A stretch of 64,000 bases of DNA from Janibacter sp. HTCC2649. Lineage in GTDB: Bacteria > Actinomycetota > Actinomycetes > Actinomycetales > Dermatophilaceae. A program made the position numbers and the translations under genes. A model generated the notes under the pieces. The model was not told the DNA's origin, ran no database searches, and was given only the letters and a program-made list of their open reading frames with translations. Below are positions 1 through 64,000 of the stretch, piece by piece (the stretch's first letter is position 1; the number at the start of each line of letters is the position of its first letter). Location: NCBI RefSeq assembly GCF_000152705.1, contig NZ_CH672413.1:2021978-2085977 (forward strand), written 5' to 3'.

Positions 1-1974
1 GCTGATCTGCACGGGCGAGGTGATGGCCGCGTCGGCGACGAGGAGGTCGCGGACGCTCTGCCGGAGCAGGACGCGGTCGGCCGGCAGCGGGAGAGAGGTG
101 ATGATGCGGGCGAGCCCGGAGTCGTCGATCTGCTTGAAGGGGCACGGGGCGGTGCCGGTCCCGGGGTCGCAGTCGAGGACGACCTCGTTGGCCGCGTTCG
201 TGTACGTGTCGGGATCCCTGAGGTCCAGGACCATCGGCAGCGTGACGACGACGTCAGGGGTGATCTTCGCCGTGGAGACCTCGGCGTTGGCGCCAGCGAT
301 GCCGGTCCGCGTCTTGAGCACGTCGGCGAACTGGGGCGCGCCGGTCTTGGGGTCGGCCGCCTCGATCGCGAAGAGCGTGCCGTTCGTGGGTGTGCCACCT
401 GTCCAACCGTCGGCGGTGAGGGTGAGCTTGGTCCCGCTGTCGATCGTGGCGACCGTGCCGGTCGAGGTGCCGGCAGTGACCTTGCGGCCCGCGAGGAGCG
501 CGGCGCCGTCGTTCTTCGGGCCGTCGAGGTCGACTCCCGAGGCCGTGAGACCCGTGGCCGTGTATGCCGTGCCCGTGCCGGACGTTGCCGCGCCGAGTGG
601 GTTGAGCTCGAGGTCGGTCTTCCCACCGCGGGTCGTGACGACGGTGAAGTTGACCTTCTTGGTCCCCGGGTCATAGGTCGCGGCCTCGGTGCCGTCGCCG
701 TCATCGCTGTCGAGGACGTCGATGGACCAGCCTCCGTCGGTGTACTCCGCCGCGTCGAGGGCGGCGAGCATGTCCTGGAGGGAGGCGAACTTCGGCTGCC
801 CGGGGGTGGCGTCGTCGGGGTCGGCGTCCGGCACCTGGTCGGCGAGGAAGGTCTTGATGCCGCCGACGGCGTCGATGGCGTTCGACAGGGAGCCACGCAT
901 GAGGGGGAGGTCGCCGTCTCCGGCGTTCTGCATGCCGAGGACGGCGGAGGCCGCCTGGGACAGCGCGGCAGCGAGGTCGCGCGGGGTCATGGTGAGGAAC
1001 GGCTTCGCGGCCTCTGGGACGACGGCCGTCACGAGCGGCGCCTCGAACGAGGCCGGCGCGGCCGAGCTCAGGGTCACGGTCGTCCCCACGCTCGGGAGGC
1101 CGGCGACTCGGTCGCTGGCCCGGGGCTTCGCATCGAGGCTGCCGGCCAGGCTGCCCGTCTGCGTGGCGGTGACGATGCCCGTGCCCGCGCCCTCGGCGGC
1201 GAGCTCGCCGTCATCGGGCGCCGCGGTGTCGGGGTTGTCGAAGGCGAGCAGGCCGGCGGCGTCGTTGTCCGGGTTGGACCAGCTGGTGCTGACGTTGCTC
1301 TGGAGGCGGTAGTCGTCGGTGTCGGCAGTGCCCGTCACGCTGACGCCGAGGATGCCGAGGCCGGCGTTGATCGTGGTGGTGGCCGGCAGGTCGGCGCTGG
1401 TGGCGATGGACAGCGAGGGCGCGGTCAGGCTGGCCTTGCCGGAGGTGGAGTCGAAGACGAAGGTGAACGAGCCGGTCAACGTCCCCGTGACGACGATCCC
1501 GGTGCCGCTCGACAGGCTGAGGGTGCCGCTCTCGTCGCGGATGTCGAGGCCGGCGTTCTGGGTGAGCGTGCGGGTGAAGCCGACGGTGAGGGAGGTGTCG
1601 CTGGGGTTGCTCGACGTGAAGACCCAGCCACTGTCGTCCGCGTCGTCGACGTAGTCCTTGAGGTCCGCCAGGGTGTCCTGCGTGCCGAAGTCCTTGAGCG
1701 GTCCGGTGGCTCCCAGCGCCGAGGAGAACGCGGTCTTGAGCCCGACGGACTCGGCCGGGGTGACGGCCAGTGTCGGCAGCTGCTTGGCCACGGCCGTGCC
1801 CGACGCGACCTGCGGCAGGAAGTCGGTGGCGAGCCGGGTGAACAGGGCACCGACCGCCGTGGTCGCGGCGTCCGGTCCCGCCGCCTGAGCGGACGGTGCC
1901 GCCGCGATGCCCAGGGTCCCGAGCATGGCGAGAGTGACGGTGGATGCGAGAGCAGATCTGCGCAGAGCGAGCAC
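1..1974 (-). CDS. Large secreted repeat-rich protein, N-terminal 658 residues (runs off left edge)
   Basis: A single minus-strand frame stays open from a GTG at 1974 to base 1, so the protein continues beyond the window. The GTG follows a GGGGA ribosome site. Residues 1 to about 31 form a signal peptide (arginines, hydrophobic stretch, cleavage after Ala-Gln-Ala). The rest is rich in Thr, Ser, Gly, Ala and Asp, with alternating short beta-type segments such as TVTLSS and TLSLSSGTG, acidic turns (DSDDGDG) and almost no Lys or Cys. It looks like an extracellular adhesin or calcium-binding surface protein. I do not recognise the family, and the C-terminus that would show an anchor is outside the window. 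The frame is seen; the role is inferred. Confidence 0.75.
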   Translation of the reverse strand, partial: MLALRRSALASTVTLAMLGTLGIAAAPSAQAAGPDAATTAVGALFTRLATDFLPQVASGTAVAKQLPTLAVTPAESVGLKTAFSSALGATGPLKDFGTQDTLADLKDYVDDADDSGWVFTSSNPSDTSLTVGFTRTLTQNAGLDIRDESGTLSLSSGTGIVVTGTLTGSFTFVFDSTSGKASLTAPSLSIATSADLPATTTINAGLGILGVSVTGTADTDDYRLQSNVSTSWSNPDNDAAGLLAFDNPDTAAPDDGELAAEGAGTGIVTATQTGSLAGSLDAKPRASDRVAGLPSVGTTVTLSSAAPASFEAPLVTAVVPEAAKPFLTMTPRDLAAALSQAASAVLGMQNAGDGDLPLMRGSLSNAIDAVGGIKTFLADQVPDADPDDATPGQPKFASLQDMLAALDAAEYTDGGWSIDVLDSDDGDGTEAATYDPGTKKVNFTVVTTRGGKTDLELNPLGAATSGTGTAYTATGLTASGVDLDGPKNDGAALLAGRKVTAGTSTGTVATIDSGTKLTLTADGWTGGTPTNGTLFAIEAADPKTGAPQFADVLKTRTGIAGANAEVSTAKITPDVVVTLPMVLDLRDPDTYTNAANEVVLDCDPGTGTAPCPFKQIDDSGLARIITSLPLPADRVLLRQSVRDLLVADAAITSPVQIS

Positions 1975-2175
1975 GTGAGTTCCCCGACGTGAGGCTCGGG
2001 GTCTTGACAGGCCCTGAGTGGCGGCGGCTACCGGAGTCGCTAGCCGAAATTGGTGCCGGTCCTTCACCTCAAGGATCGTCATTTTTGGGTCATCCCAACG
2101 GCACTCGCTGGCCACCCAGAGAGCACAGTCCCACTGCCCGGTCAACCGCCGATATGACCTTTTGTGACTATGTTT

Positions 2176-2187
2176 ACTAGTTACTTT
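2176..2187 (-). promoter_or_regulatory. 12-mer shared with the whiB/ponA2 intergenic region
   Basis: In the 288-base gap upstream of the giant secreted protein, the minus strand reads AAAGTAACTAGT. The identical 12-mer lies on the plus strand at 57255-57266, upstream of the class A penicillin-binding protein gene. Both copies point toward genes for envelope or secreted proteins. Such an AT-rich 12-mer is unlikely to repeat by chance at this base composition. Its role as an operator is inference. Confidence 0.3.
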
Positions 2188-2262
2188 CTTCCCGGGAGCG
2201 CCCTCGGGGCCGAATCGGGCATTCCTGCAGGTCCGGGACCTGCGTCCGCGCGTGACTCACGA

Positions 2263-3675
2263 TCAACCCCCGATTCCGCGCCGTTCCCCCGACGTGGCAT
2301 CTGGTCCGAATTGGCCAGCCTGCACGACTCCGACTCCGGCCAGCATTGGGGTGGCACGGCTGCTCGTGATGGTCACCTCGATCTGCTGCGCACGAGTCGG
2401 CGGGAACTCGATGAAGCGCTGGTATCCCACGCTTCCGGCCGTGGCCAGGAGCACGCGTTCGTCGCCGTCGACGCGATGGATCTCGACGCCCTCGATGCGT
2501 TGCCCCAGGCGGATGTCCTCCTTGAGCACCACCGCCCTGACCTCGCGTTCGGCGGGCCACCGGAGCGTCACGCAGGGGCCGACAGAGTTCGCGGAGAACG
2601 TCGTCTCGGCCTCCCCGGCGATGTCGCTCGCCTCCCACTCCCGGATGAGGGCGCCCAGGCCGCGCAGCGCGACGGCGTCCTCCGCCGCGATCGTGCCGTC
2701 ACGTCGCGGCGGCACGTTGAGCAGCAGCGTCGCATTGCCCCCGACGCTGCGCCGGTAGATCTCGAAAAGCTCATGCGCAGAACGCACTTCGGCATCTTCG
2801 TGGTCGTGGTGGAACCAGCCGGGACGGATCGAGGTGTTCACCTCCGCCGGATACCAGACCGGCTCACCCGGATAGCCCTCGAGCGCCTCGCGACTGCCGA
2901 GGTCCTCGTCCGCCGACCGCACCGCCCGGGAGAACGCACCGTCGTCGGCCTGCTGCGACAGGCTTGCCGTGAGTTCGGCCGACCGCAGCTCCCACGGCAC
3001 GACGCTCCACTCGTCGGGGCGCGTGTGCCCGGCTTCGTTGCCGCACCACCGCACGTCCGGTCCGCACACGCTGATGACCGCCTCGGGCTGCAACGCCCGC
3101 ACCACGCGGTGGTAGCGGTCCCAGTCGTACTCCTGCCGCCGCCCACTCGGCCCCTCACCGTTGGCGCCATCGAGCCACACGCAGAAGATCGGCCCATACC
3201 CCGTCAGCAACTCGGTCAGCTGGGCTACATAGAAGTCGTCGTAGGCCGTCCCCTCCCCATACGTCTTTTCCGCCCGGTCCCACGGCGAGAGATAGATCCC
3301 GAACTTGAGGCCGGCCCGGGCGCACGCCTGCGCCACCTCGCGCACGAGATCCCCTGAACCCGAGCGCCACGGGCTCGACCGCACCGAATGGTCACTGTGC
3401 CGGGTGGGCCACAGCGCGAACCCGTCGTGGTGCTTGCAGGTGAGGATGACCGCCGACATCCCCGCTTCAGCGCACAGCGCCACCCAGTCGTCGGCATCCA
3501 CCGTCTCCGGCGCGAACAGCGCAGGACTCTCGGTGCCGTCGCCCCACTCCCGATCCGTCATCGTGTTCATCCCGAAGTGCAGGAACCCATAGAACTCGAG
3601 CTCCTGCCACGCGAGCTGCCGCGCCGACGGGACGACATGGGCGAGATGGGTGAGGTCCGGGCCTGGCTCAGCCAT
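2263..3675 (-). CDS. Alpha-L-fucosidase, GH29 family
   Basis: The 470-residue product matches glycoside hydrolase family 29. Motifs include HFGMNTMTDREWG (about residues 33-45), CKHHDGFALWP (80-90), and WLDG around the likely nucleophile Asp169; the C-terminal part looks like a beta-sandwich. GH29 enzymes release L-fucose from glycans by a retaining mechanism. I place the start at 3675 because GGAAGGA lies six bases upstream; a longer open frame upstream overlaps the divergent regulator gene. No signal peptide is visible, so it is probably cytoplasmic and would act on imported oligosaccharides. No sugar transporter lies nearby. The family is sure; the exact substrate is not. Confidence 0.88.
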   Translation of the reverse strand: MAEPGPDLTHLAHVVPSARQLAWQELEFYGFLHFGMNTMTDREWGDGTESPALFAPETVDADDWVALCAEAGMSAVILTCKHHDGFALWPTRHSDHSVRSSPWRSGSGDLVREVAQACARAGLKFGIYLSPWDRAEKTYGEGTAYDDFYVAQLTELLTGYGPIFCVWLDGANGEGPSGRRQEYDWDRYHRVVRALQPEAVISVCGPDVRWCGNEAGHTRPDEWSVVPWELRSAELTASLSQQADDGAFSRAVRSADEDLGSREALEGYPGEPVWYPAEVNTSIRPGWFHHDHEDAEVRSAHELFEIYRRSVGGNATLLLNVPPRRDGTIAAEDAVALRGLGALIREWEASDIAGEAETTFSANSVGPCVTLRWPAEREVRAVVLKEDIRLGQRIEGVEIHRVDGDERVLLATAGSVGYQRFIEFPPTRAQQIEVTITSSRATPMLAGVGVVQAGQFGPDATSGERRGIGG

Positions 3676-3729
3676 GAGCGGTCCTTCCGAGACGAGTTCC
3701 TGGGCAACGGCCATGACTATCCTCGGTGC

Positions 3730-4539
3730 ATGGCCAATGACGGCTCCTTGAGGGCCCTCGTCGTCGATGACGAGCTCCCCGCCCTCTCCGAGGTGCGCTT
3801 CCTGCTCGACTCCGACCCGCGGATCGGAGCGGTCCTGACGGCCACCAACGGCACCGAGGCCCTCCAGATGCTCGAGGACCACGAGATCGACGTCATCTTC
3901 AGCGACATCTCGATGCCGGGTCTCGACGGGATGGCCCTGGGCCGGGTTCTGGCTCGCTTCGCCTCTCCCCCGCAGCTCGTCTTCGTCACGGCCCACGAGC
4001 AGCACGCGGTTGACGCCTTCGCCCTCGCCGCAACGGATTACGTGATGAAGCCCGTGCGCGGCGAACGTCTCGCTGAAGCCGTCCGTCGCGTCGTGGCCAA
4101 GCAGGACGAGGCGGGTATGCCGCCCGCTCCCGTCGGTGAGACCGGCTCACCTTCCGCTCCGGGAGGGTCTGCAGGCGGGGCTGGCCCGGCGCCGGCCGAG
4201 GACGAGACGATCCCCGTCGAGCTCGGTGGCGTCACCCGCTTCATCACCCGGTCCCAGATCCGCTACGCCCAGGCGTCCGGCGACTACGCCCGGCTGCACA
4301 CTGCCGAGGGGTCGCATCTTGTGCGGATCCCTCTCGCCGTCCTCGAGGAGAAGTGGGCCGACCACGGCTTCATTCGGATCCACCGGTCGACCCTCGTGGC
4401 ACTGCCGCACGTCACCGAGGTACGGATGGACCACGGACGGTGCTCGATCGTCATCGGTGACGTCGAGCTGCAGGTGAGCAGACGGCATACGCGACAGCTT
4501 CGGGACGTGCTGCTGAGGCGACCAGGCACGGGAAGCTGA
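3730..4539 (+). CDS. LytTR-family response regulator
   Basis: A 269-residue DNA-binding regulator. The receiver domain (about residues 7-125) has the acidic pair Asp13/Asp14 and phospho-acceptor Asp59 in the context FSDISMPG. A proline/glycine linker follows (about 135-160), then a LytTR domain (about 165-265) with FITRSQIRYAQASGDYARLHT and IRIHRSTLVAL. The gene overlaps the next one by TGATG and so heads an operon with two membrane proteins. In E. coli the LytTR regulators BtsR and YpdB control pyruvate-responsive transporters, which suggests this one controls the symporter downstream. No partner kinase is next to it: the upstream neighbour is the divergent fucosidase, 54 bases away. Confidence 0.9.
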   Translation: MANDGSLRALVVDDELPALSEVRFLLDSDPRIGAVLTATNGTEALQMLEDHEIDVIFSDISMPGLDGMALGRVLARFASPPQLVFVTAHEQHAVDAFALAATDYVMKPVRGERLAEAVRRVVAKQDEAGMPPAPVGETGSPSAPGGSAGGAGPAPAEDETIPVELGGVTRFITRSQIRYAQASGDYARLHTAEGSHLVRIPLAVLEEKWADHGFIRIHRSTLVALPHVTEVRMDHGRCSIVIGDVELQVSRRHTRQLRDVLLRRPGTGS

Positions 4540-4958
4540 TGGCCGCCGAGCGGTCCGGTGTGCCGCCGCGGGTGCGGGTCACGAGCTCGCGGCGTTCAGC
4601 GGTGACGGCGGTGACGGCGCACGCCCGGGTGCGTGCCAGCGACCTCGACGACCAGACCGACTTGGGTGACGTCTACATCGACGGGTTGCGGCGGGCCCAA
4701 TTGCGCTTGGCCCTAACCGTTTTGGCGTTGATGGCGGGGGCGATCGGGGGCTTCCCCTTGCTCCTGACGCTCGTGCCCTCCACGCGGACGATGACGTTGG
4801 CGGGGGTGCCGTTCCCGTGGCTCGTGCTCGGGGTGCTCGTCTATCCGGCGGCGTGGTTGCTGGCGCGCGCGTATGTGCGGCAGGCCGAGCGGATCGAGTC
4901 GGAGTTCGCCGACATCGTCGAGCCCGGGCGTGAGGGTCGCGAGGCTCGGGATGGCTGA
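4539..4958 (+). CDS. Small two-helix membrane protein, DUF485-like symporter partner
   Basis: A 139-residue protein with a charged N-terminal region (1-50), two transmembrane helices (about 53-80 and 87-110), and a charged tail ending in EFADIVEPGREGREARDG. Size, two-helix layout and position directly before a sodium/solute symporter match the DUF485 proteins that precede acetate symporters; compare the gene at 27357. Similarity to that copy is weak, so this is a divergent member. Start and stop overlap both neighbours (TGATG upstream, eight bases downstream), indicating translational coupling. It probably assists or stabilises the symporter. Confidence 0.75.
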   Translation: MAAERSGVPPRVRVTSSRRSAVTAVTAHARVRASDLDDQTDLGDVYIDGLRRAQLRLALTVLALMAGAIGGFPLLLTLVPSTRTMTLAGVPFPWLVLGVLVYPAAWLLARAYVRQAERIESEFADIVEPGREGREARDG

Positions 4959-6483
4959 CGCCTTCTCGATCGTCGCGGTCGCGCTCGTGTGCCTGACGAC
5001 GATGGTCGTGGGGGCGTGGGGATTGCGGTTGTCGCGGCGGACCTCGGACTTCTATGTGGCCGGTCGGACGGTGTCGCCGCGCTTGAACGCGAGTGCGATC
5101 TCGGGCGAATACCTTTCTGCCGCTTCGTTTTTGGGTGTTGCCGGGCTGATCTATGACCAGGGCGTCGACCTGTTGTGGCTGCCGGTGGGCTACACGTTGG
5201 GGTATCTCGTTTTGTTGGTGATGGTGGCGGCGCCGATGCGGCGGTCGGGGGCGTACACGTTGCCCGACTTCGCCGAGGCGCGGCTCGGGTCGGTGCTGGT
5301 GCGGCGGCTTGCGGCGGTGCTCGTCGTGGCGATCGGCTGGATGTATCTCGTGCCGCAGTTCCAGGGCGCGTCGTTGGCGTTGCAGCTCGTGACTGGGGCG
5401 CCGCAGTGGGTGGGGTCGCTGCTGGTTGCTGTGGTCGTTGCCGTGGCGGTTGGCGCGGGTGGGATGCGGTCGATCACGTTCGTCCAGGCGATGCAGTACT
5501 GGATCAAGCTCACGTGTCTGGCGGTGCCGGCGTTCGTGCTCATCGCGCTCTGGATGCGTTCTGGCGGTGGGGCGCCCGTCGTGTCGGAGTCATGGTCGGA
5601 GCCGTTCGCGGGGCGCGGTCCTGGCGACCATCCGTTCTATCGGACCGGCTCGATGATGCTCGCGTTGTGCCTCGGGACGATGGGGCTACCGCACGTGTTG
5701 GTGCGCTACTACACGAACCCCGATGGGGTGGCCGCGCGACGCACGACCGTGTCCGTCGTGGCCCTGTTGGGCGTCTTCTATCTGTTGCCCCCGGTGTATG
5801 CCGTGTTCGGTCGTCTGCACCTACCGTCACTGCCCGCTGGGGTGCGGTCCGACACGATCGTGCTGCAGCTGCCGGCGCGGGTCGTGGATGGTCTTGGTGG
5901 CGATGTGTTGACGGCGATGTTGGCTGGTGGCGCCTTTGCCGCGCTGCTGTCGACGGCGTCAGGGTTGGCGATGTCGGTCACGGGGGTGCTGCACCAGGAG
6001 TTCCTGCGGCCCCGGCTTTCGCGCCTGACGGGTGGGGACGCTTTTGGGTTTGGCGGGTTCCGGCTGGCGGCGGTGGCTGCGGTGGCGGTGCCGTTCATCG
6101 CTGCACGGTTCGTCGAGCAGATCGGGATCGCGACGACGGTGGGGTTCGCGTTCTCGTTGGCAGCGGCGACGTTCGCGCCGTTGCTGATCCTGGGGGTGTG
6201 GTGGAAGCGGTTGAGTCGAGCGGGGGCGGTGTCGGGGCTGGTCGTCGGGGCACTGGCAGCGACCTCAGCGGCGGTGACGACGTATGCGGCCGGGCCCCTG
6301 GATGGATGGGCCGGCGCACTACTGGCGAACCCGGCGGCGTGGTGTACGCCCTTGGCCTTCGCGACCGCGATCATCGTGTCGCTCGCCACGCCGGCCACGA
6401 TCCCCCGCGAGACCGCTCGGCTCATGGTTCGTCTCCACACCCCCGAGAAGGTCCACCTGGCCCGAAGCCGCCTCGCCGACTGA
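4951..6483 (+). CDS. Sodium/solute symporter (SSS family), probable monocarboxylate carrier
   Basis: A 510-residue protein with about 13 transmembrane helices. Family signatures are visible: SEYLSAASFLGVAGL-type motif near residue 50, IRSITFVQAMQYW around residue 170, and GLPHVLVRYYTNPD near residue 250. These are typical of the acetate/pyruvate branch (ActP, MctC). The ATG at 4951 overlaps the preceding stop. Control by the LytTR regulator at the head of the operon is likely. A decayed second copy lies at 11490-12382. The codons use T and G at third positions more than the neighbours do (many GTG, TTG and GGG), giving this gene a different texture from the actP copy at 27702. Confidence 0.88.
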   Translation: MADAFSIVAVALVCLTTMVVGAWGLRLSRRTSDFYVAGRTVSPRLNASAISGEYLSAASFLGVAGLIYDQGVDLLWLPVGYTLGYLVLLVMVAAPMRRSGAYTLPDFAEARLGSVLVRRLAAVLVVAIGWMYLVPQFQGASLALQLVTGAPQWVGSLLVAVVVAVAVGAGGMRSITFVQAMQYWIKLTCLAVPAFVLIALWMRSGGGAPVVSESWSEPFAGRGPGDHPFYRTGSMMLALCLGTMGLPHVLVRYYTNPDGVAARRTTVSVVALLGVFYLLPPVYAVFGRLHLPSLPAGVRSDTIVLQLPARVVDGLGGDVLTAMLAGGAFAALLSTASGLAMSVTGVLHQEFLRPRLSRLTGGDAFGFGGFRLAAVAAVAVPFIAARFVEQIGIATTVGFAFSLAAATFAPLLILGVWWKRLSRAGAVSGLVVGALAATSAAVTTYAAGPLDGWAGALLANPAAWCTPLAFATAIIVSLATPATIPRETARLMVRLHTPEKVHLARSRLAD

Positions 6484-8603: not shown

Positions 8604-10199
8604 GTGACCAGCACCAACACGAGCTCCACCGTCGACGCCGATCGGCGGACCGCGACGGGTCAGGGCATTCGCCCTCGCCCGTCGCGGGCCTTGCTCGCGC
8701 TCGGCGCCCTGGCCACCGCAACGGCCTTGCTGTCACTCCTGCCTCTGGCCTACGTCATCGGCGCGACAGCAGAGACCGGTTGGGGCACCGCCGCCGAGCT
8801 GATCTTCCGACCTCGTGTGGGTGAGCTCCTCGTCAACACCCTTCTCCTCGTCGCCTGCACGGTTCCCCTGTGCATCGTCATCGGGGTGGGCGGTGCGTGG
8901 TTGGTGGAGCGAACCCAACTCGCGGGCGCGCGGTGGTGGTCGCTCGCCCTGGCCGCTCCCTTGGCGATCCCCGCCTTCGTCAACAGCTATGGCTGGGTGT
9001 CCGTCGTGCCCTCTCTGGGCGGCCTGCACGCGGGAGTCCTGATCGCCACGCTGTCGTACTTCCCTCTGGTCTACATCCCGGTGGCGGCCACCCTGACGCG
9101 GTTGGACCCGGCACTGGAGGAGTCGGCCGCAGCCCTCGGGCTCGGCCCTTGGGCCGTCTTTCGCCGGGTGGTGCTGCCGCAGCTGCGGCTGGCCATCAGC
9201 GGAGGATCATTGCTGGTCGGCCTGCACCTGCTGGCCGAGTACGGCGCCTTCGCCATGATCCAGTTCGACACCTTCACCACCGCGATCATGAGCCAGTACC
9301 AGTCGACCTTCAACGGCGTCGCTGGCTCGATGCTGGCGGGCGTCCTCGTCCTGTTGTGCTTCCTCATGCTCTGGCTCGAAGCGCGCACTCGCGGCCGGGC
9401 CCGCCTGTCCCGGATCGGCTCGGGGTCGCAGGCTCTGCCCCCGCGGGCGCGTCTGCACCGCTTCCAGGCTCCGGCACAGCTGGCACTGGTGGCCGTCACC
9501 GTCCTCGCCTTCGTGCTGCCCGTGTCATTCGTGCTTCGGTGGGCCTTTGCCGGACGCCCCGGCACCTGGGTCGCCGATGACCTGCTGACGGCACTGGCCC
9601 AGACCCTCGGTTACGCCTCGGCCGGGGCCGTGGTCACGGTGATCCTCGCGTTCCCGTTGGCCTTCCTCGCCGTTCGCCACTCCACCGTCTTCAGCCGCTT
9701 CCTCGAGCTGTCCAACTACGTCACGAGCTCGATGCCCGGCATCGTTGTGGGCCTGGCCTTCGTGACGATCAGCATTCGCGTCGTCCCCGATCTGTACCAG
9801 TCAGCGGCAGTCCTGATCACGGCATACTCACTGCTCTTTCTCCCGAGGGCACTCGTGAGCCTGCGCTCCGGGCTGGCCCAGGCCCCGCCCGAGCTGGAGG
9901 AGGCGGCCCAGACCCTGGGATGGCACCCCGCGATGGCCTTCGTGAGGGTGACCCTGCGACTCTCCGCACCCGCCGCAGCCGGTGGCGCAGCCCTCGTGTT
10001 CCTCGCCGTCGTGAACGAGCTGACGGCCACCTTGCTCCTCGCGCCCAACGGCACCCGGACGCTCGCGACGGCGTTCTGGAGCAAGAGCAGCGAGATCAAC
10101 TACACGGGCGCCGCGCCCTACGCCCTGCTGATGATTGTGTTGTCGATGCCCATGACCTACATCCTGTTCCGCCAGTCCCGAAAGGTCGCCGGCCAGTGA
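8604..10199 (+). CDS. Ferric-iron ABC transporter permease, two fused transmembrane domains
   Basis: A 531-residue membrane protein with about 12 helices in two homologous halves. Each half carries the cytoplasmic coupling motif of binding-protein-dependent permeases: LEESAAALGLGPWAVFRRVVLP in the first and LEEAAQTLGWHPAMAFVRVTL in the second. Fused two-domain permeases are typical of the FbpB/SfuB/FutB iron group. The GTG at 8604 lies eight bases after the binding-protein stop. The gene overlaps the ATPase gene by GTGA, so the three are co-translated. Confidence 0.9.
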   Translation: MTSTNTSSTVDADRRTATGQGIRPRPSRALLALGALATATALLSLLPLAYVIGATAETGWGTAAELIFRPRVGELLVNTLLLVACTVPLCIVIGVGGAWLVERTQLAGARWWSLALAAPLAIPAFVNSYGWVSVVPSLGGLHAGVLIATLSYFPLVYIPVAATLTRLDPALEESAAALGLGPWAVFRRVVLPQLRLAISGGSLLVGLHLLAEYGAFAMIQFDTFTTAIMSQYQSTFNGVAGSMLAGVLVLLCFLMLWLEARTRGRARLSRIGSGSQALPPRARLHRFQAPAQLALVAVTVLAFVLPVSFVLRWAFAGRPGTWVADDLLTALAQTLGYASAGAVVTVILAFPLAFLAVRHSTVFSRFLELSNYVTSSMPGIVVGLAFVTISIRVVPDLYQSAAVLITAYSLLFLPRALVSLRSGLAQAPPELEEAAQTLGWHPAMAFVRVTLRLSAPAAAGGAALVFLAVVNELTATLLLAPNGTRTLATAFWSKSSEINYTGAAPYALLMIVLSMPMTYILFRQSRKVAGQ

Positions 10200-48968: not shown

Positions 48969-49649
48969 TCAGGTGCGCTTGCGCATCCAGTCGGACAGGA
49001 CGTGCTCGGGGATCGGGCGTTCGACCTTCGCGTCCCACGGCTGACTCAGCTCGGCGAGGTCGAAGACCGCACCGAGCAGCAACGCGGTGAAACCCCACAC
49101 GAACAGCCCGCCCGCCTCGAACCCGGGCCCGCGATAGCCCGACGGGTGCGCCACGGTGAACCTGCGCGCAGGGTCCACCAAATCGGCTACCGGCACTCGC
49201 TCGACCCGCTCGACCTCGGCCGGGTCCACGACGCGAACTTCACCGGGTGTCGGCCACCAGCCGAGCACCGGTGTCACGGCGTTGCCGCTCGGGGTGAGGA
49301 ACAGGGCGGGCATCTCGACCACGACATCGACCGTCGCCGGATCGACCCCGACCTCTTCCTCCGTCTCGCGCAGTGCCGCCTCGACCGGCCCGGCATCCGT
49401 GGCATCCACACGTCCTCCGGGGAACGACACCTGCCCCGGGTGGGCGCGCAGGTCACGCGATCGCGCGGTCAGCACGACGTCCGTACCCCCGTCGGTCGAA
49501 GGCGCAAAGAGCATGAGCACAGCGGAGCGACGGTCCGGGTCCTCCGGCGGCTTGAACGTGGCGAAGGCCGCGGGCAGCTCGTCGCCGACGGAGGCGAGCA
49601 CCCGGGCCATCCACTCGGGCCGCGGCGCACCCTCTGGCGCTGCTCTCAC
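48969..49649 (-). CDS. nudL: NUDIX hydrolase, probable CoA pyrophosphatase
   Basis: A 226-residue NUDIX protein. The box reads [25 protein letters not shown]; an aspartate takes the place of the usual first glutamate. The preceding [16 protein letters not shown] is the UPF0035 signature of CoA/acyl-CoA pyrophosphatases. It overlaps nth by four bases. The same pair (Rv3672c/Rv3674c region) occurs in M. tuberculosis. Confidence 0.88.
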
Positions 49650-53183: not shown

Positions 53184-53882
53184 TCAGGGGATGTGGGAGC
53201 GCATGACGAGGCGGTCGCCGAGGTCGACGAGCTCGGGTGCGACCAGGGTCAAGGCTGGACGATCCATCAAAAACGCGGCCGCCGTGGCGAACTGGGCCAG
53301 CTGCTCGAGCATCACGACGGTCGGCGGCAGCATCACGGCCCTGCCTTCGGCGTATGCCGCGAGCAGACTTTGCGGGGTCACCCACGCATCGTGGTCGGTC
53401 TCCCCAGAGACCCCCACCGGAGTTTGCCCCTCCGGCATGAGGGCCGCGAAGAACCACGTGTCGTAGCGCCGCTTCTCGAACGCAGGCGTCACCCAGTGGG
53501 CACGTGGTACGAGCTCGGTCACGGACAGCTGCAGCCCGCACTCCTCCTCGACCTCACGGATTGCGGCTGCCACCAACGGTTTCGCGTCGATGGCCGGCAA
53601 CTCCATCCGCGCAGCCAACGCCTCGAGCGCACCGGCGTCGAGATCGACGTCGGCATCACCGGCATCGACGCCACCGCCGGGGAAGACGTACATCGACGGT
53701 GCGAACTCCATCGTGGGCACCCGCCGCTGGACGAACACCGACGGGCCATCGGACGTGTCGCGCACGACGAGCACCGTGGCGGCCCTCCGGGGCACCAAGG
53801 GCTCACCCGGCGACGCGAGCCAGGCCCGGGCGTTCTCCACCCACGCACTCGAGAGGGGAGCAGGGAACTCGCGTAGCGGCAT
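53184..53882 (-). CDS. NUDIX hydrolase
   Basis: A 232-residue protein. RRAATVLVVRDTSDGPSVFVQRRVPTMEFAPSMYVFPGGGVD precedes a long insertion. The NUDIX helix is VAAAIREVEEECGLQL. The insertion between the glycine strand and the REVEEE helix is typical of the NUDT19-like group. It is convergent with the endonuclease-like gene and 15 bases upstream of nothing else; the RidA gene lies just beyond it in the same direction. Confidence 0.85.
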   Translation of the reverse strand: MPLREFPAPLSSAWVENARAWLASPGEPLVPRRAATVLVVRDTSDGPSVFVQRRVPTMEFAPSMYVFPGGGVDAGDADVDLDAGALEALAARMELPAIDAKPLVAAAIREVEEECGLQLSVTELVPRAHWVTPAFEKRRYDTWFFAALMPEGQTPVGVSGETDHDAWVTPQSLLAAYAEGRAVMLPPTVVMLEQLAQFATAAAFLMDRPALTLVAPELVDLGDRLVMRSHIP

Positions 53883-53897
53883 ACCCGAACGGTCTGG

Positions 53898-54570: not shown

Positions 54571-55590
54571 GTGCCCTCACCGACCCTTCCCGCCGAGTTC
54601 GCGGGCGCCCGACTGCACGTCGTCACGGGCAAGGGAGGCGTCGGCAAGACCACCGTCGCTGCCGCCCTGGCCCTCGCCCTCGCGAGCACCGGCAAGCGCG
54701 TGCTCATCGTCGAGGTGGAGGGGCGCCAAGGGCTCTCGCAGACCTTCGACGTCCCGCCGCTCGGCACCGGCGAGGTCCGCCTCGTCGCCCACAAGAGCGG
54801 CGGTGAGCTGTGGGGGCTGTCGGTCGACGCGAAGGCTGCACTGCTCGAATACCTCCAGATGTTCTACAAGCTCGGGCGCGCGGGCTCGGCCCTCGAGAAG
54901 ATCGGCGCCATCGACTTCGCGACGACGATCGCGCCGGGCGTGCGCGACGTCCTGCTGATCGGCAAGGTCTACGAGGCGGCCGGGCGACCCAGGGGCGGGC
55001 GCGGCAGTGGCAAGAGCAGCGGACTGCACTACGACGCCGTCGTCCTCGATGCGCCGCCCACGGGCCGCGCCGTGCGCTTCCTCAACGTCAACGCGGGGGT
55101 CGCCGATGTTGCCAAGATGGGCCCGATCAAGACCCAGGCCGACTCGATCACCCGGATGCTGCGCGACAAACGCACTCTCATCCACATGGTCACGCTGCTC
55201 GAGGAGATGCCGGTCCAGGAGAGCCTCGACGGACTGCGCGATCTCGCCGACGTCGGCCTCCACATCGGCGCGCTCATCGTCAACCAGATCCGCGAGCCGC
55301 GCCTCACGCCCGCCCACGTCGAGGCCCTCAGCGGCAGCGATGCCGAGCTGGACGAGCTGCTCCGCACCCAGCTCACCGCCGCCGGCCTGCGCCCCACCAA
55401 CCCCATGGTGCGAGGGCTCATCAGCGAGGGCCGCGACCACGCCCAACGCCTCGCCCTCCAGGACGACATGGCGCGTGAGATTGCTGGCGCCGGGCCGCCC
55501 GTCATCGAGCTGCCCGCCCTCGTCGGCGGCATCGAGGACGGCGGCGTCGCGGTCCTGGCCGACGAACTCCTCGAGCAAAGGATCGTCTGA
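54571..55590 (+). CDS. Get3/ArsA-like ATPase, first of a pair
   Basis: A 339-residue ATPase. The deviant Walker A is GKGGVGKTT (about 20-28). Switch regions include VVLDAPPTGRAVRFLNV (about 158-174). It is the first of two tandem homologues joined by TGATG, corresponding to Rv3679-Rv3680 of M. tuberculosis, a Get3-like heterocomplex. The role is not an arsenite pump here: no ars genes are near. Membrane-protein targeting or metabolite handling are the proposed roles. Confidence 0.9.
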   Translation: MPSPTLPAEFAGARLHVVTGKGGVGKTTVAAALALALASTGKRVLIVEVEGRQGLSQTFDVPPLGTGEVRLVAHKSGGELWGLSVDAKAALLEYLQMFYKLGRAGSALEKIGAIDFATTIAPGVRDVLLIGKVYEAAGRPRGGRGSGKSSGLHYDAVVLDAPPTGRAVRFLNVNAGVADVAKMGPIKTQADSITRMLRDKRTLIHMVTLLEEMPVQESLDGLRDLADVGLHIGALIVNQIREPRLTPAHVEALSGSDAELDELLRTQLTAAGLRPTNPMVRGLISEGRDHAQRLALQDDMAREIAGAGPPVIELPALVGGIEDGGVAVLADELLEQRIV

Positions 55591-56750
55591 TGGCCACCAC
55601 CAAGAGTCCCGAGCACCCGCGGCTCGACATCGACGCGCTGCTCGCCGACCCCGGCGTCGGCATCATCGTGTGCTGCGGTGCCGGCGGCGTCGGCAAGACG
55701 ACGACCGCCGCAGCGCTGGGCATCCGCGCTGCTGAGGCCGGTCGCAAGGTCGTCGTCCTCACCATCGACCCCGCCCGCCGCCTCGCCCAGGCCCTCGGCC
55801 TCACCGAGCTCGACAACACGCCCCGCCCGGTGGCCGGAGTCGACCTCTCCAGCGGTGGCTCGCTCGACGCGATGATGCTCGACATGAAGCGGACCTTCGA
55901 CGAGGTCGTCGAGGCTCACGCCACGCCCGAGAAGGCTGCGCAGATCCTGGAGAACCCCTTCTACCAGGCGGTGTCGAGCTCGTTCGCGGGCACGCAGGAG
56001 TACATGGCGATGGAGAAGCTCGGCCAGCTCCGCGCTCAGGCCGAACACGAGGGCACCTGGGACCTCATCGTCGTCGACACTCCCCCGTCACGCTCGGCGC
56101 TCGACTTCCTCGACGCACCGAAGCGGCTCGGCTCCTTCCTCGACGGTCGCTTCGTCCGGCTGCTCATGGCGCCGGCCAAGGTCGGCGGTCGCGCCTATCT
56201 CAAGGTGTTCAGCGTCGGCGTCGACCTGGCGCAGCGCACGCTCAGCCGGGTGCTCGGTGGCCAGATGCTGCAGGACGTGCAGACGTTCGTCGCCGCGCTC
56301 GACACGATGTTCGGCGGGTTCCGCGAGCGCGCCGACGTCACCTACGCGTTGCTCAAGGAACACACGACGGCCTTCGTCGTCGTCGCCTCCCCCGATCGGG
56401 ATGCGCTGCGCGAGGCGGCGTTCTTCGTGGACCGTTTGGGCGAGGAGCGTATGCCGCTCGCCGGGGTTGTCGTGAACCGTCTCCAGTCGCTCGGGGCGGC
56501 TGCGTTGTCCGCGTCGCGCGCGGAGGATGGTGCCCAACAGCTGGCCGACGATGGTGCCGACGACGCCCTCACGGCTGGCCTGCTGGCCCTGCACGCCGAC
56601 CTGGCTTCGACTGCATCGCGCCAGCACGCCGTCGTCACCCGCTTCGCGGCGGCCCACCCCGACGTCGAGCTGTCTACGGTGGCCGCGTCGGCGACGGACG
56701 TGCACGACCTCGACGGACTGCGAGAGGTCGGTCGACTGCTCGCCGGCTGA
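55590..56750 (+). CDS. Get3/ArsA-like ATPase, second of a pair
   Basis: A 386-residue ATPase with deviant Walker A GAGGVGKTT (about 30-38), LTIDPARRLAQALGL (about 56-70), and IVVDTPPSRSALDFLDAP (about 155-172). The length and the inserted region (about 180-225, KVGGRAYLKVFSVGVDLAQRTLSRVLGG) match Rv3680. It overlaps the first ATPase gene by TGATG. The two products are expected to form a complex. Confidence 0.9.
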   Translation: MATTKSPEHPRLDIDALLADPGVGIIVCCGAGGVGKTTTAAALGIRAAEAGRKVVVLTIDPARRLAQALGLTELDNTPRPVAGVDLSSGGSLDAMMLDMKRTFDEVVEAHATPEKAAQILENPFYQAVSSSFAGTQEYMAMEKLGQLRAQAEHEGTWDLIVVDTPPSRSALDFLDAPKRLGSFLDGRFVRLLMAPAKVGGRAYLKVFSVGVDLAQRTLSRVLGGQMLQDVQTFVAALDTMFGGFRERADVTYALLKEHTTAFVVVASPDRDALREAAFFVDRLGEERMPLAGVVVNRLQSLGAAALSASRAEDGAQQLADDGADDALTAGLLALHADLASTASRQHAVVTRFAAAHPDVELSTVAASATDVHDLDGLREVGRLLAG

Positions 56751-56788: not shown

Positions 56789-56823
56789 AAAACCGGGCCT
56801 TCACCACGAAGGTGACGACCCGG
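56789..56823 (-). terminator. Intrinsic terminator of whiB4
   Basis: Read on the minus strand, a stem of CCGGG and CACC pairing with GGTG and CCCGG is followed by TTTTCG. It lies 19-53 bases past the whiB4 stop. Confidence 0.6.
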
Positions 56824-56841
56824 CATACGCAGCAGAATGTG

Positions 56842-59851: not shown

Positions 59852-59877
59852 GTTGTCAGGGTTTGCGTGCCAGGCGT

Positions 59878-60339
59878 TCAGCCTGCGAGGACCTGCTTGA
59901 CGATGGCTGCGACCCGGCCACCGTCGGCGCGGCCGGCGATCTCGCCCTGGGCGGCCTTCATGACCTGCCCCATCTGCGCCATGCCCGTCGCCCCCGTCGA
60001 CTCGACGGCGGCCCGCACGATGCGCTCGAGCTCGGCATCGTCGAGCTGCTTCGGAAGGTAGGCCTCGAGGATGACCAGCTCGGCCTCCTCGATGGCGGCC
60101 AGCTCGGGCCGATCCGCATCCGTGTATGCCGTGAACGACTCCTTGCGCTTCTTGGCCTCCTTGGCGATGACCTTGAGGACCTCGTCGTCGCTGAGCTCCT
60201 TGGCCTCGACCCCGGCCACTTCGGCGTTGGTGATGGCGGTGAGCGTCATGCGCAACGTGCCGGCGCGGACCTTGTCCTTGGTGCGCATGGCGTCGTGGAG
60301 GTCGCTCCGGAGCGTGCCCTTGAGAGTCGTGTCGGTCAT
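59878..60339 (-). CDS. GatB/YqeY domain protein
   Basis: A 153-residue protein made of one GatB/YqeY domain: LRSDLHDAMRTKDKVRAGTLRMTLTAITNAEV, KEAKKRKESFTAYTDADRPELAAIEEAELVILEAYLPKQL and MGQVMKAAQGEIAGRADGG. The domain is related to the tRNA-binding tail of amidotransferase GatB, and the stand-alone form is common in bacteria. ATG 60339 is chosen because the domain begins there; the frame continues upstream antisense to the next gene. Confidence 0.88.
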   Translation of the reverse strand: MTDTTLKGTLRSDLHDAMRTKDKVRAGTLRMTLTAITNAEVAGVEAKELSDDEVLKVIAKEAKKRKESFTAYTDADRPELAAIEEAELVILEAYLPKQLDDAELERIVRAAVESTGATGMAQMGQVMKAAQGEIAGRADGGRVAAIVKQVLAG

Positions 60340-60381
60340 GGCTCCAGTCTCGCACTCAGGGTCAACCGGGATACTGGGTCG

Positions 60382-61323
60382 ATGACGTCGACGACCCGGG
60401 CAGTCCTGCAGACCCTTGCCGGGGTCACGGCCGCCGGAGTGGCGGGCGTGGCGTATGCCGGGCTCGTCGAACGCAACCTCTTCACCCTGCGTCGCTTCGA
60501 GGTGCCGGTCCTGCCGTCGGGTTCCGCTCCGTTGCGCATCCTGCAGGTGAGCGACTTGCACCTGACACCGGGCCAGCGCCGCAAGATCGAGTGGGTTCGT
60601 GAACTCGCCTCTCTCACACCGGATTTCGTCGTCAACTCCGGAGACAACCTGGCCGCAGTCGACGCCGTCCCCGGGTTGCTCCGGGCCATGGAGCCGCTCA
60701 TGGACTTCCCCGGAGCGTTCGTCCTGGGGTCCAACGACCGCTACGGCCCCGTCCCCAAGAACCCGGCCCGCTACCTCACCCGCGACCACGCCCGCGCTCC
60801 GCGCGCGACCCGGCCGAACCTCCCCGTCGACGACCTCACTGCGGGCCTGCGCGCCGGCGGATGGCTCGACCTCGACAACGCCAGGACCACCGTGGCCGTC
60901 GGCCCCCACCGCATCGAGCTCGTCGGAGTCGACGACCCACACATACAACGCGACAGGTATGCCGCGGTGTCGGCTCCCGCTGCCGCGGACGTTGCGCTCA
61001 CCCTGGGTCTCGTGCACGCGCCCTACCAGCGGGTCCTCGACGCGATGACCGCCGACGGGGTCGGTCTCATCCTCGCCGGGCACACCCACGGCGGGCAGCT
61101 GGCGCTCCCCTTCTACGGCGCACTCGTGACCAACTGCGATCTCGACACGGGCCGGGCCAAGGGACTGTCCCGGTGGTGGCCCGGAGCGGGAGGCGACGTG
61201 CCGACGCAACCGGAGCGGGCGGCATACCTCCATGTTTCTGCGGGTCTGGGGACCTCGCCGTACGCGCCGGTGCGCTTCGCGTGCCGCCCCGAGGCGACCC
61301 TGCTCACCCTGGTGTCGTGCTGA
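60382..61323 (+). CDS. Metallophosphoesterase
   Basis: A 313-residue calcineurin-type phosphoesterase with an N-terminal membrane-associated helix (about 5-28). Motifs: VSDLHLTPGQ, VVNSGDNLA, LGSNDRYG (the usual GNHD box has Ser-Asn here) and LAGHTHGGQLALP. The layout matches Rv3683, next to ponA2 in mycobacteria. Substrate unknown. It overlaps the convergent lipoprotein gene by 20 bases. Confidence 0.88.
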   Translation: MTSTTRAVLQTLAGVTAAGVAGVAYAGLVERNLFTLRRFEVPVLPSGSAPLRILQVSDLHLTPGQRRKIEWVRELASLTPDFVVNSGDNLAAVDAVPGLLRAMEPLMDFPGAFVLGSNDRYGPVPKNPARYLTRDHARAPRATRPNLPVDDLTAGLRAGGWLDLDNARTTVAVGPHRIELVGVDDPHIQRDRYAAVSAPAAADVALTLGLVHAPYQRVLDAMTADGVGLILAGHTHGGQLALPFYGALVTNCDLDTGRAKGLSRWWPGAGGDVPTQPERAAYLHVSAGLGTSPYAPVRFACRPEATLLTLVSC

Positions 61324-62323
61324 CGGGCACCGCGTCGGGGAAGCGTTGGCGATAGGCGGCTTCCCAGTCGGCTGACCCGCTGCCGCCGTCGACGAGGTCC
61401 CCGTCGCCGGACCCGCCGTTCTGCTCGCCCCTCTCGGAGCGGCCGAGCTCGAGGTCGAGCCTGTGGCCGGCGGGCATGGCGTCGTTGATCGCCTCGACGA
61501 TGGGCCAGATCGCAGCGCCATGCGCGGTCTCGGTGAGGGGGCCGCTGACGGCCGGGAAGGAGACCTGGACCCGGACCTTGCGGACATCCGCGACGTCCTC
61601 GACCACGACCACGCGCGCGATGGATGCGGCACCGGTGTCACCGGCATACGTCGTCTCGATGGCCTTCCAGTCCGCGACCATGGACGCGGTGAGGGGCCGA
61701 CCGGGGGCAAAGCGGACGTAGGGCGTGCCCGGGGTCTGGTACTCGGCGATGTCCCAGTCGAGGTCGGTGAGCTCCGTGGTGAGCGCCCAGGTGAGCGATT
61801 CGCCGACGGGTTCATGGGTGGAGATCGACGCCCGCGGGGTGCGGGGTGCCGGCCAGACCTGGACGCGGAGTCCGCCGGTGGAGGAGGTCGCCACGGCGTT
61901 GGCCCACCTGGTGGCGAGACCGGGCGGGGTGAGCTCCGGGCCGAACGCAAGGCTGGCTCCCACCGTCGCCGCCTCAGCACCCTCGGCGGGGCGCACCGTG
62001 ATGACGAACTCGTCGTAGCCGTCGGCATTCTTGATGCCCCGCAGGGAGGTGGGGAGGAGGCGAACGAGGTCCTCGACCTGCTGGGCGTCGGGTGGGCTCG
62101 CGACCTCGACCTCGAGCGACTGGTCCCCTGCCCCACCGAGACTCGTGCCTGTGAAGGACGCATCAACGGCCACGACGCCGGATAGTTTGCCGACGGCAGC
62201 AGCGACGCGTTGCTCGTCAGGTTCGGGCTGCGAGCAGCCCGAAGTCGCCATCAACAGGGCTGCACATCCGACGGCTGCGAGTCCGCTCCTCAGGCTTCGA
62301 CCGGTCCCCGCTGTCCGTCGCAT
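61304..62323 (-). CDS. Lipoprotein of unknown function
   Basis: A 339-residue lipoprotein: [19 protein letters not shown] at the start and LMATSGCSQ lipobox with Cys near residue 30. The mature part contains two related beta-alpha halves ([18 protein letters not shown]..., and [11 protein letters not shown]...), reminiscent of tandem BON- or secretin-like folds, but I cannot name a family. ATG 62323 was chosen for the signal peptide; the frame runs upstream through the tRNA region and is not used. Confidence 0.7.
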
Positions 62324-62723: not shown

Positions 62724-62815
62724 ACCAGATTCACGACCCATCCAACGGACGTGCCTGGTCGAAAGGGACGTCCTACTCCGTTCTCCTTCGGCCGGGCTGC
62801 GAGGAGAACACCCAG

Positions 62816-63394
62816 ATGTACGCCTTCCTGCTCAGCACCGCCGTCATCTTCGTTGCCGAACTCGGCGACAAGAGCCAACTCATGGCCATGACGTTTGCGA
62901 CCCGCTACACCGTCCGACAAGTCCTCATCGGGATCACGGTCGCCACCGCCATCGTGCACCTGGCATCCGTGGGCATCGGCCGCCTCGTCGGCGCCCAGTT
63001 CGCCGACAGCCAGTGGATCATCAACATCGTCGCGGGCGTCGCCTTCCTCGCCTTCGCCGCCTGGACCCTGCGCGGAGACGAGCTGACCGACGACGAGGCC
63101 GCCAAGGCGGGCCGGAGCAAGGGTGCCGCGATCGTCGCCGTCGGTGTCGCCTTCTTCCTCGCCGAGCTCGGCGACAAGACCATGCTCGCGACCATCACCC
63201 TCGCCACGAAGGAGAGCTGGTTCGGGACGTGGGTCGGAAGCACCCTCGGCATGGTGCTCGCCGACGCCCTGGCCATCGCGGTCGGCGCGATGCTCGGCAA
63301 GAAGCTCCCGGAGCGGGTCATCAAGATCGGCGCGACCGTCGCGTTCGTCGTCTTCGGCATCGTCCTCATCATTCAGGGGCTGGCGGCACGCTGA
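62816..63394 (+). CDS. GDT1/TMEM165 (UPF0016) family cation exporter, probably Mn2+
   Basis: A 192-residue protein with six helices in two halves, each with the family motif E-x-G-D-K-[ST]: VAELGDKSQLMAM (about 12-24) and LAELGDKTMLATI (about 118-130). Members export Mn2+ or exchange Ca2+/H+. ATG 62816 has GAGGAGA 11 bases upstream. The Mn2+ riboswitch before it strongly suggests a manganese exporter induced by excess Mn2+. Confidence 0.9.
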   Translation: MYAFLLSTAVIFVAELGDKSQLMAMTFATRYTVRQVLIGITVATAIVHLASVGIGRLVGAQFADSQWIINIVAGVAFLAFAAWTLRGDELTDDEAAKAGRSKGAAIVAVGVAFFLAELGDKTMLATITLATKESWFGTWVGSTLGMVLADALAIAVGAMLGKKLPERVIKIGATVAFVVFGIVLIIQGLAAR

Positions 63395-63998
63395 CGGACG
63401 CTGCCCCTGACCCGGGTCCCGGCGTCGGTGTCGGCGCCAGGGCTGGCGTCGGCGCCGGGGCTGGCGTCGGCGCCGGCGTCGTCGCAGCCTCCTCGGGGAG
63501 ACCGTCTGCCCAGTAGTCGAAGGTCTGCGTGATCCAGAAGGTCGCGAACGCCACGAGCAGGATGACCTCGACCCACAGCACCCACTCGGTCGGTGTGCCG
63601 CCACCCAGGAACTGGTCGACGATCACGAGCACGATGGCCACGGCGAACGTCACCGCCATCACTCCTGCGACGGCGCCATAGACGGCGGTGTACGTCCTGG
63701 CCTCCCTGGTGGGCACACCCTCACGCCGCGCCGACGCCCGACGAGCGTTGACGTAGGCGACGCCGGTGATGAGCCCGAACAACGGCACGGCGGCGCCGAA
63801 GTGCGCACCCCCGAGGAAGGACTCCCGCCCGAACACGAACCACCCCACGAACGCCACCCACGTCAGGGCAGCGACGACGAATCCGATCCGGGTCCCCCGC
63901 GACGTCTCCGGCCGACGGAGGATCGTGACGGCGCCGAGCCCCAGAGCCGCCACCCCCAGCCCGATGAGGCACCACACGTTGTTGACGACCGACGGCAC
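63369..63998 (-). CDS. Membrane protein with Pro/Thr-rich tail (may be partial at right edge)
   Basis: At least 209 residues from a GTG at 63998; the true start may lie beyond the window. Five hydrophobic helices (about 5-25, 38-55, 63-82, 108-130, 140-160). The C-terminal tail is a Pro/Thr/Ala repeat (PAPTPAPAPTP...) encoded by a short GC-rich tandem repeat around 63420-63485. No family recognised. It overlaps the convergent GDT1 gene by 26 bases. Confidence 0.6.
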   Translation of the reverse strand: MPSVVNNVWCLIGLGVAALGLGAVTILRRPETSRGTRIGFVVAALTWVAFVGWFVFGRESFLGGAHFGAAVPLFGLITGVAYVNARRASARREGVPTREARTYTAVYGAVAGVMAVTFAVAIVLVIVDQFLGGGTPTEWVLWVEVILLVAFATFWITQTFDYWADGLPEEAATTPAPTPAPAPTPALAPTPTPGPGSGAASVSVPPAPE

Positions 63999-64000
63999 GA

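Follow-up and report, generated by a model that had tools for sequence, protein, structure and literature searches.

Abundant uptake sequences are reported for the Gram-negative families Pasteurellaceae and Neisseriaceae (PMC7811141). In Neisseria the DNA uptake sequence (DUS) is GCCGTCTGAA and is bound by the minor pilin ComP (PMC6370729), eight DUS dialects are described in the Neisseriaceae (PMC3630211), and an atypical DUS distribution, or DUS deserts, served in this family to find conjugative elements (PMC7371117). For the uptake signal sequence (USS) of the Pasteurellaceae the minor pilin PpdA/ComN has been proposed as the receptor and divergent dialects are described (PMC12616744); uptake-signal hairpins are described as terminators in Neisseria and in the Pasteurellaceae (PMC1852404). 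Transformation of Micrococcus luteus needs both of its Tad clusters, tad-1 and tad-2 (PMC4322843). Here we analyse the octamer GTATGCCG/CGGCATAC in a 64,000-nt stretch of DNA deposited as Janibacter sp. HTCC2649 (contig NZ_CH672413.1, positions 2,021,978 to 2,085,977, hereafter the window) and in the genome to which it belongs (G000). We consider that GTATGCCG is probably the core of a DNA uptake sequence, that is, a genome-wide self tag that, by analogy with the systems above, would be read during natural transformation.

By its sequence, the source genome belongs to the genus Knoellia, family Dermatophilaceae/Intrasporangiaceae, and the acetyl-CoA synthetase encoded in the window has 92-93% identity to the proteins of Knoellia sp. 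Soil729 and K. sinensis. As for the DUS of the Neisseriaceae, there are thousands of copies, hairpins, an atypical distribution in conjugative elements and dialects within a family (PMC3630211, PMC7371117, PMC1852404). Unlike the DUS, the word is another one and the phylum is another one, and the nine Knoellia genomes have no pilM match, so that a receptor of the ComP type, carried by a type IVa pilus, would not be expected there. The Pasteurellaceae USS is similarly a short word in high copy number, with terminator hairpins (PMC1852404) and dialects (PMC12616744); in contrast to it, GTATGCCG is a different word, in bacteria with a different envelope and pilus, and the long conserved AT-rich flanks of the USS were not seen around it in the sample described below. 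In machinery, the Flp/Tad transformation of M. luteus is similar, with comEA/comEC and two Tad clusters in a similar gene order (PMC4322843); the Knoellia clusters differ by an additional small flp-like gene in tad-1 and by tadB and tadC being separate genes in tad-2. Chi and HIP1 are likewise over-represented octamers, but Chi is usually oriented and HIP1 is palindromic, and GTATGCCG is neither. The term 'uptake sequence' was absent from the searched papers on transformation in M. luteus and freshwater actinobacteria; among the matches listed there was no report of an uptake sequence in Gram-positives or Actinobacteria (the subscription literature was mostly outside the scope of this search), and among those listed for the bare octamer there were unrelated papers only. 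By this comparison GTATGCCG resembles an uptake sequence and is a candidate member of the class.

Abundance, placement and exactness of the octamer

The window, with a GC content of 68.0%, contains 28 copies of GTATGCCG/CGGCATAC on the plus strand and 22 on the minus strand, 50 in total, against a third-order Markov expectation of 2.25 for both strands, i.e. about a 22-fold excess; it is the top-ranked 8-mer of the window by both scores used. A preliminary description of the window had counted close to 50 copies, about 28 versus 21 by strand, at about 20 times an expectation of about 2: all its nine example coordinates are in our list, and the excess is real and was, if anything, understated. 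In the whole genome (4,235,068 bases, the window lying at C1:2021978-2085977) there are 1486 copies in forward and 1496 in reverse orientation, 2982 in all or about one per 1.5 kb, compared with 35+24 = 59 copies of the reversed word used as a control; the genome-wide count is far above the expected level at which that description would have had to be given up. Its statement that there is no strong strand bias also holds, with p = 0.87 for the genome-wide balance. Orientation is likewise unbiased over 10 sampled places including the window (chi-square 4.4, 10 degrees of freedom). The word is not its own reverse complement and has adenines on both strands.

To separate coding from intergenic copies we used a 424-kb sample of G000, made up of the window and 360 kb more and partly picked to include a word-free gap. 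Its genes come from a hexamer caller of our own making. The first version of the caller missed or truncated some genes, and the counts were repeated with an improved version. The sample has 264 copies of GTATGCCG. With the improved gene calls, 204 of them are within coding sequences (CDSs), compared with a mean of 20.5 and a maximum of 32 in 100 within-gene synonymous shuffles (202 versus 19.9 with the first calls), and all six frame/strand placements of the word are enriched over the shuffles. The density is about threefold higher in intergenic than in coding DNA, 1.53/kb versus 0.53/kb (1.56 versus 0.53 with the first calls). Taken together, the excess over synonymous shuffles, the enrichment of all placements and the intergenic excess indicate selection at the DNA level. 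The commonest placement within CDSs is Tyr-Ala (TAT-GCC), with 102 of 202 copies, and 102 of the 454 TAT codons of the sample fall inside GTATGCCG.

The copies are also selectively maintained in relatives. In the relative G003, 29 of the 31 aligned window copies are identical, against 3383 of 9505 (36%) control 8-mers matched to GTATGCCG in GC count, and in K. sinensis 12 of 13 window copies are identical, against 30% of the controls.

The core is exact. Precisely, the 24 words with one mismatch occur in the sample at 0 to 2.04 times their expectation, against 24 times for GTATGCCG, and the most frequent of them reaches at most 67 copies; expectations for words sharing the first letters of GTATGCCG are inflated, since the motif had not been masked for the Markov model. 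A degenerate motif was ruled out on this basis, one-mismatch words being at most about twofold enriched. The flanks are weak: A is rare directly after the word, C or G mostly stands directly before it, and no long conserved AT-rich flanks were seen in the sample. Since the flanks are hardly conserved, a repeat element bearing the word was ruled out for the coding copies.

The 50 window copies of GTATGCCG are given below with their strand. Gene labels are mostly those of the first version of the caller, and the intergenic labels were rechecked with the improved one.

562-569, plus, in gene 1-1974 (minus), antisense
4115-4122, plus, in response-regulator gene 3646-4539 (plus)
4483-4490, minus, in response-regulator gene 3646-4539 (plus)
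5796-5803, plus, in gene 4951-6483 (plus), Tyr-Ala frame
9820-9827, minus, in gene 8604-10199 (plus)
15551-15558, minus, gene edge
15995-16002, plus, intergenic
18650-18657, plus, in gene 18505-19431 (minus)
19122-19129, minus, in gene 18505-19431 (minus), Tyr-Ala frame
20877-20884, plus, in gene 20607-21776 (minus)
21476-21483, minus, in gene 20607-21776 (minus), Tyr-Ala frame
21849-21856, plus, intergenic
23035-23042, plus, in gene 22444-23049 (minus)
24364-24371, plus, in gene 24205-24696 (minus)
24736-24743, minus, intergenic
25569-25576, minus, in gene 24802-26019 (minus)
27170-27177, plus, intergenic
27286-27293, minus, intergenic
29417-29424, plus, intergenic
31419-31426, minus, intergenic
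33098-33105, minus, in gene 33072-33842 (plus)
33138-33145, plus, in gene 33072-33842 (plus)
37713-37720, minus, intergenic, left arm of an inverted pair
37734-37741, plus, intergenic, right arm of the inverted pair (imperfect predicted fold, -16.1 kcal/mol)
38214-38221, plus, in acetyl-CoA synthetase gene 37882-39846 (plus)
38738-38745, minus, in acetyl-CoA synthetase gene 37882-39846 (plus)
40152-40159, plus, in gene 39922-41454 (minus)
41340-41347, minus, in gene 39922-41454 (minus)
41364-41371, minus, in gene 39922-41454 (minus)
41591-41598, plus, in gene 41459-42586 (minus)
42623-42630, plus, intergenic
44928-44935, plus, in gene 44804-46102 (plus)
45523-45530, minus, in gene 44804-46102 (plus)
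45907-45914, plus, in gene 44804-46102 (plus)
46253-46260, plus, in gene 46068-46916 (minus) by the first gene calls, intergenic by the improved calls
46918-46925, minus, intergenic by the first gene calls, not fully so by the improved calls
47205-47212, plus, in Na+/H+ antiporter gene 47044-48399 (plus)
48857-48864, plus, intergenic
50404-50411, minus, in gene 49646-50437 (minus)
51487-51494, plus, in gene 51199-51990 (minus)
51806-51813, minus, in gene 51199-51990 (minus)
53352-53359, plus, in gene 53184-53840 (minus)
53877-53884, minus, intergenic
56449-56456, plus, in gene 55590-56750 (plus)
56821-56828, minus, intergenic
60124-60131, plus, in gene 59863-61323 (plus) by the first calls, gene start later by the improved calls
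60453-60460, plus, in metallophosphoesterase gene ending at 61323 (plus)
60957-60964, plus, in metallophosphoesterase gene ending at 61323 (plus)
61220-61227, minus, in metallophosphoesterase gene ending at 61323 (plus)
61642-61649, minus, in gene 61304-62251 (minus)

Among intergenic regions, the density of GTATGCCG is 2.47/kb in convergent, 1.52/kb in tandem and 1.15/kb in divergent gaps. Gaps with an inverted pair within 60 bases number 5 of 51 between convergent genes, 4 of 140 between tandem genes and 0 of 61 between divergent genes (9 of 252 in all). Nine pairs were folded: seven are predicted to form long stems of -39.4 to -46.5 kcal/mol and two give weaker folds, one of -22.8 kcal/mol and the other being the window pair 37713/37734. 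By these predictions, inverted GTATGCCG pairs form terminator-like hairpins at gene ends; the folds, as well as the phase labels, rest on the first version of the gene caller. Further close pairs are inside genes, e.g. 33098/33138.

One stretch of the sample, C1:148598-186525 (37.9 kb), has zero copies. The chance of such a gap at the rate of the remaining sample is about 6e-12, uncorrected for the region having been picked after the gap had been seen, and it is a single case. It encodes a TraG/TraD-type coupling protein, an M23/SLT/NlpC-P60 protein, a reverse transcriptase and a Mu-type transposase, in addition to its own further T2SSE ATPase and TadE genes, and a TrbL/VirB6 match falls just under the curated cut-off. 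We consider this stretch a probable integrative conjugative element.

Apart from the octamer, a repeat centred on a palindrome (TTGCGCAA within approximately CGACTTATTGCGCAATCCGTCGG) occurs five times in two intergenic spots of the window (19855-19935 and 39849-39915), and ATTGCGCA/TGCGCAAT gave just 4 further counts in the rest of the sample; the repeat is possibly a repetitive extragenic palindromic (REP)-like element or a regulator site.

Distribution and dialects in the family and the order

A first survey covered 58 genomes, G000 included, of which 22 were from other families. The nine Knoellia genomes have 1971-3277 copies of GTATGCCG each, the other genera of the family mostly show either a strong enrichment or a near-background level, and counts outside the family (22 genomes) are 2-167. 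Among 186 genomes of the family, 105 reach 150 copies per Mb or more, 9 are in the range 60-150 and 72 are below 60; the distribution is bimodal, and 30 of the 53 genera have at least one member in the top density class. Considering single loci of 11-22 kb, those of three Knoellia, Pedococcus, Ornithinibacter and an Intrasporangiaceae metagenome-assembled genome (MAG) have 8 to 29 copies, and two Phycicoccus loci and a Humibacillus MAG locus have none. A Dermatophilaceae MAG locus has 3 copies, and in the 70 loci of other groups the counts are 0 to 4 per locus.

Several of the low genera have, by word counts, one-letter dialects of GTATGCCG, namely GGATGCCG, GTACGCCG and GTATGCGG. The variant GGATGCCG has 3816 copies in G024 and 3949 in G033, compared with 253-976 in 54 other genomes, and intermediate counts in G009 (1336) and G055 (1548). 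The variant GTACGCCG has 2216 copies in G030 and 1359 in G031, with a weaker excess in some others (e.g. G026, G039 and G057), and GTATGCGG has 1204 copies in G027. Two words side by side were seen in samples only, GTATGACG alongside GTATGCCG in G011 and G034 and GAATGCCG alongside GTATGCCG in G020; genomes of this kind resemble, and may be, dialects in transition. In a second family of the order (f19), CGGATGCC occurs in up to 3019 copies, and in 19 of the 40 genera it is at least five times as frequent as the reversed control. In G055, the T-ending form CGGATGCCT accounts for 16 of the 35 copies in 40 kb. Weak dialects can escape notice in relatives sampled over 13-60 kb only. Twelve samples (15-20 kb each) of the order's other families gave no clear dialect.

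We also checked signal-poor genera for hidden dialects (19 regions, two of <1 kb being dropped). Genus g51 and one of the two g66 genomes show GTACGCCG, and a g54 genome shows GTATGCCG itself; in g63, g67, g14, g50 and odd members of g52, g68 and g25 there was no known dialect beyond a few copies. Besides words with expectations of several copies, the highest stray count in these samples was 4 copies of GTATGCGG versus 0.1 expected, in G123. Three genomes, G065, G141 and G118, are lone signal-poor members of the otherwise signal-rich genera g52, g68 and g25; they are possibly cases of recent signal loss and, if so, useful in a search for the receptor.

Other words emerged during this comparison. 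Samples of g63/g67 without the octamer (L212, L216 and L217) have another frequent word, CGAAGGGG/GAAGGGGG, with 23 copies of GAAGGGGG versus 1.5 expected in 20 kb of G100; in G097 (g63, L211) it is not among the top five words. At G053:C1:28082-31265 there are >50 copies of GTATGCGG at about 61-base spacing, probably a clustered regularly interspaced short palindromic repeats (CRISPR) array or a tandem repeat, which inflate the forward count of that genome. In G036 (L163) GGACGCCG has 38 copies versus 10.3 expected, perhaps a further dialect in another family, and in G048 (L180) GCGATCGC has 30 versus 7.1 expected.

Competence genes and proposed explanations of the octamer

In Knoellia, comEA (with SLBB and helix-hairpin-helix domains) and comEC share one operon. 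A compact Tad cluster (tad-1, C1:1367323-1371920) includes a T2SSE ATPase, tadB and tadC (named by order), a small flp-like gene, TadE, a second TadE-type pilin and a Tad/TadG-type protein. A second one (tad-2, about C1:2004734-2009225) lies about 13 kb before the window and has a T2SSE ATPase, a T2SSF protein and a DUF4244 Flp-like pilin, with matches to ParA, T2SSF and TadE below cut-off. By eye, the pilin N-termini resemble those given for M. luteus (PMC6370729), also at the processing sites, which are G/xxxxEF in tad-1 and G/xxxxEY in the tad-2 Flp. Given comEA-comEC and two Tad clusters resembling M. luteus tad-1/tad-2, the gene set for transformation is, as judged from genes, present in Knoellia.

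Among the options listed in the preliminary description, which comprised an uptake-type signal, a methylation or restriction-related target, a recombination hot-spot and a nucleoid-protein site, the first fits best, and Chi-like and nucleoid sites fit worse. This is supported by the exact core, the lack of orientation bias, the hairpins, the absence from the conjugation-gene stretch, the dialects and the competence genes. As suggested by DUS and USS, a surface or membrane protein would read GTATGCCG on incoming DNA, and the tagged DNA would enter via ComEC and then recombine into the chromosome. Tagged alleles would replace untagged ones more often than the reverse (biased gene conversion), and in this way the word would be kept, regained and spread. 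Terminators could be recruited from inverted GTATGCCG pairs, and a change of the receptor by a residue or two, followed by the genome, could give a new dialect. We infer that uptake is the selecting force and that the reader belongs to the ComEA/Tad machinery; the genomic footprints are observed, and reading, uptake and gene conversion would act here as proposed for DUS and USS.

Several observations weigh against an uptake signal. No uptake data for these bacteria were found, and the excess in conservation is smaller in Soil729 (7 of 12 window copies kept versus 34% of controls) and K. aerolata (4 of 8 versus 30%). Furthermore, the machinery does not clearly track the signal across genomes. 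ComEC is present in 57 of the 58 genomes and is no discriminator, nor is TadE in general (57 of 58). For the tad-1 pilin TadE2 we considered as strong any match with E below 1e-40 to a profile built from 18 of these genomes: it was strong in 24 of 27 signal-bearing and in 6 of 9 signal-less family genomes, a trend in favour of a link that is not significant (Fisher p 0.15). The six are G010, G016, G017, G018, G026 and G035; in the signal-less G014, G021 and G022 there was no TadE2 match, and G014 had no T2SSE ATPase above cut-off. Conversely, G004 and G008, Knoellia genomes with about 2540 copies each, are without a strong match, for which a recent loss of tad-1 is a conjecture, and no TadE2 match was found in G033, which has 3949 copies of GGATGCCG and keeps tadABC only, without pilins. 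The tad-1 pilin as a discriminator thus fails both ways. A relaxation of ComEC in signal-less genomes was seen relative to leucyl-tRNA synthetase (LeuRS; 8 against 22 genomes, p 0.005) and was absent relative to the DegV reference (7 against 20 genomes, p 0.99), a contradictory result. Coevolution of the dialects with ComEA, ComEC and tad-1 proteins was not found in a weak test on 9-18 genomes, in which the control gene LysR scored higher (p 0.029). Finally, PilM (PF11104), present in 13 of the 58 genomes overall, was not found in the 9 Knoellia genomes. The pilM gene belongs to the pilus type that bears the Neisseria receptor, and with no match in these nine genomes a type IVa pilus was rejected as the reader of GTATGCCG.

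Other explanations were weighed against the same data. Chi sites are exact, abundant short words marking self DNA, and a Chi-like signal, at which a RecBCD- or AdnAB-type nuclease-helicase would stop degrading and start recombination, is compatible with the conservation of GTATGCCG and its absence from the conjugation-gene stretch. However, Chi sites work in a single direction and mostly point the way that replication runs, whereas the orientation of GTATGCCG is balanced both genome-wide (1486/1496) and over the 10 places (with the origin not located); neither the threefold intergenic enrichment nor inverted pairs at gene ends would be expected, and repeated one-letter dialects in one family would need equally many nuclease changes. 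We regard this explanation as improbable. We think no better of a methylation or self-marking motif, of the HIP1 kind or a site of a methyltransferase with a non-palindromic target, which an epigenetic or repair function would maintain. HIP1 (GCGATCGC), an abundant palindromic octamer of cyanobacteria, is a precedent, and adenines are available on both strands of GTATGCCG; yet GTATGCCG is not palindromic, restriction targets tend to be depleted in genomes and not enriched, and the bimodal spread over 53 genera and the dialects would require parallel methyltransferase shifts.

Thousands of sites across the chromosome would fit a word bound by a nucleoid, segregation or regulatory protein, but segregation signals are polar or confined to a domain and nucleoid proteins read loose motifs, whereas GTATGCCG is exact, unpolar, present in coding regions and missing from the conjugation-gene stretch, which makes such a site very unlikely. 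Least credible of all is that no DNA-reading function is involved and that the word stems from preferred codons or dicodons, or from a bias in mutation or mismatch repair. In its favour, about half of the copies in CDSs (102 of 202) are Tyr-Ala. The preliminary description had remarked that Tyr is otherwise mostly TAC, which agrees with 1827 TAC versus 454 TAT codons in the sample, and had argued against a plain codon effect while allowing that TAT-GCC might account for everything. It accounts for only 102 of 202-204 copies, and a plain codon or dicodon effect is ruled out by the synonymous shuffling (204 versus 20.5), the enrichment of all six placements and the higher intergenic density; as for a repair bias, one-mismatch words are not enriched (at most 67 copies) and give no sign of a precursor pool.

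Meaning for the family and the order

On a broader level, and with somewhat less assurance than for GTATGCCG itself, we lean to the view that at least two actinobacterial families of one order have an uptake-type recognition of self DNA, with about seven dialects (five counted genome-wide and two in samples), Tad instead of type IVa pili and a new kind of receptor. If this is true, DNA uptake that selects by sequence either had a separate origin here or goes back further than assumed, and it works with a different pilus. Natural competence would then be predicted in many genera without genetic systems, together with the word that donor DNA should carry. Word-free stretches would be a simple marker for mobile DNA, and the dialects would help to find the receptor and to study barriers to gene exchange.

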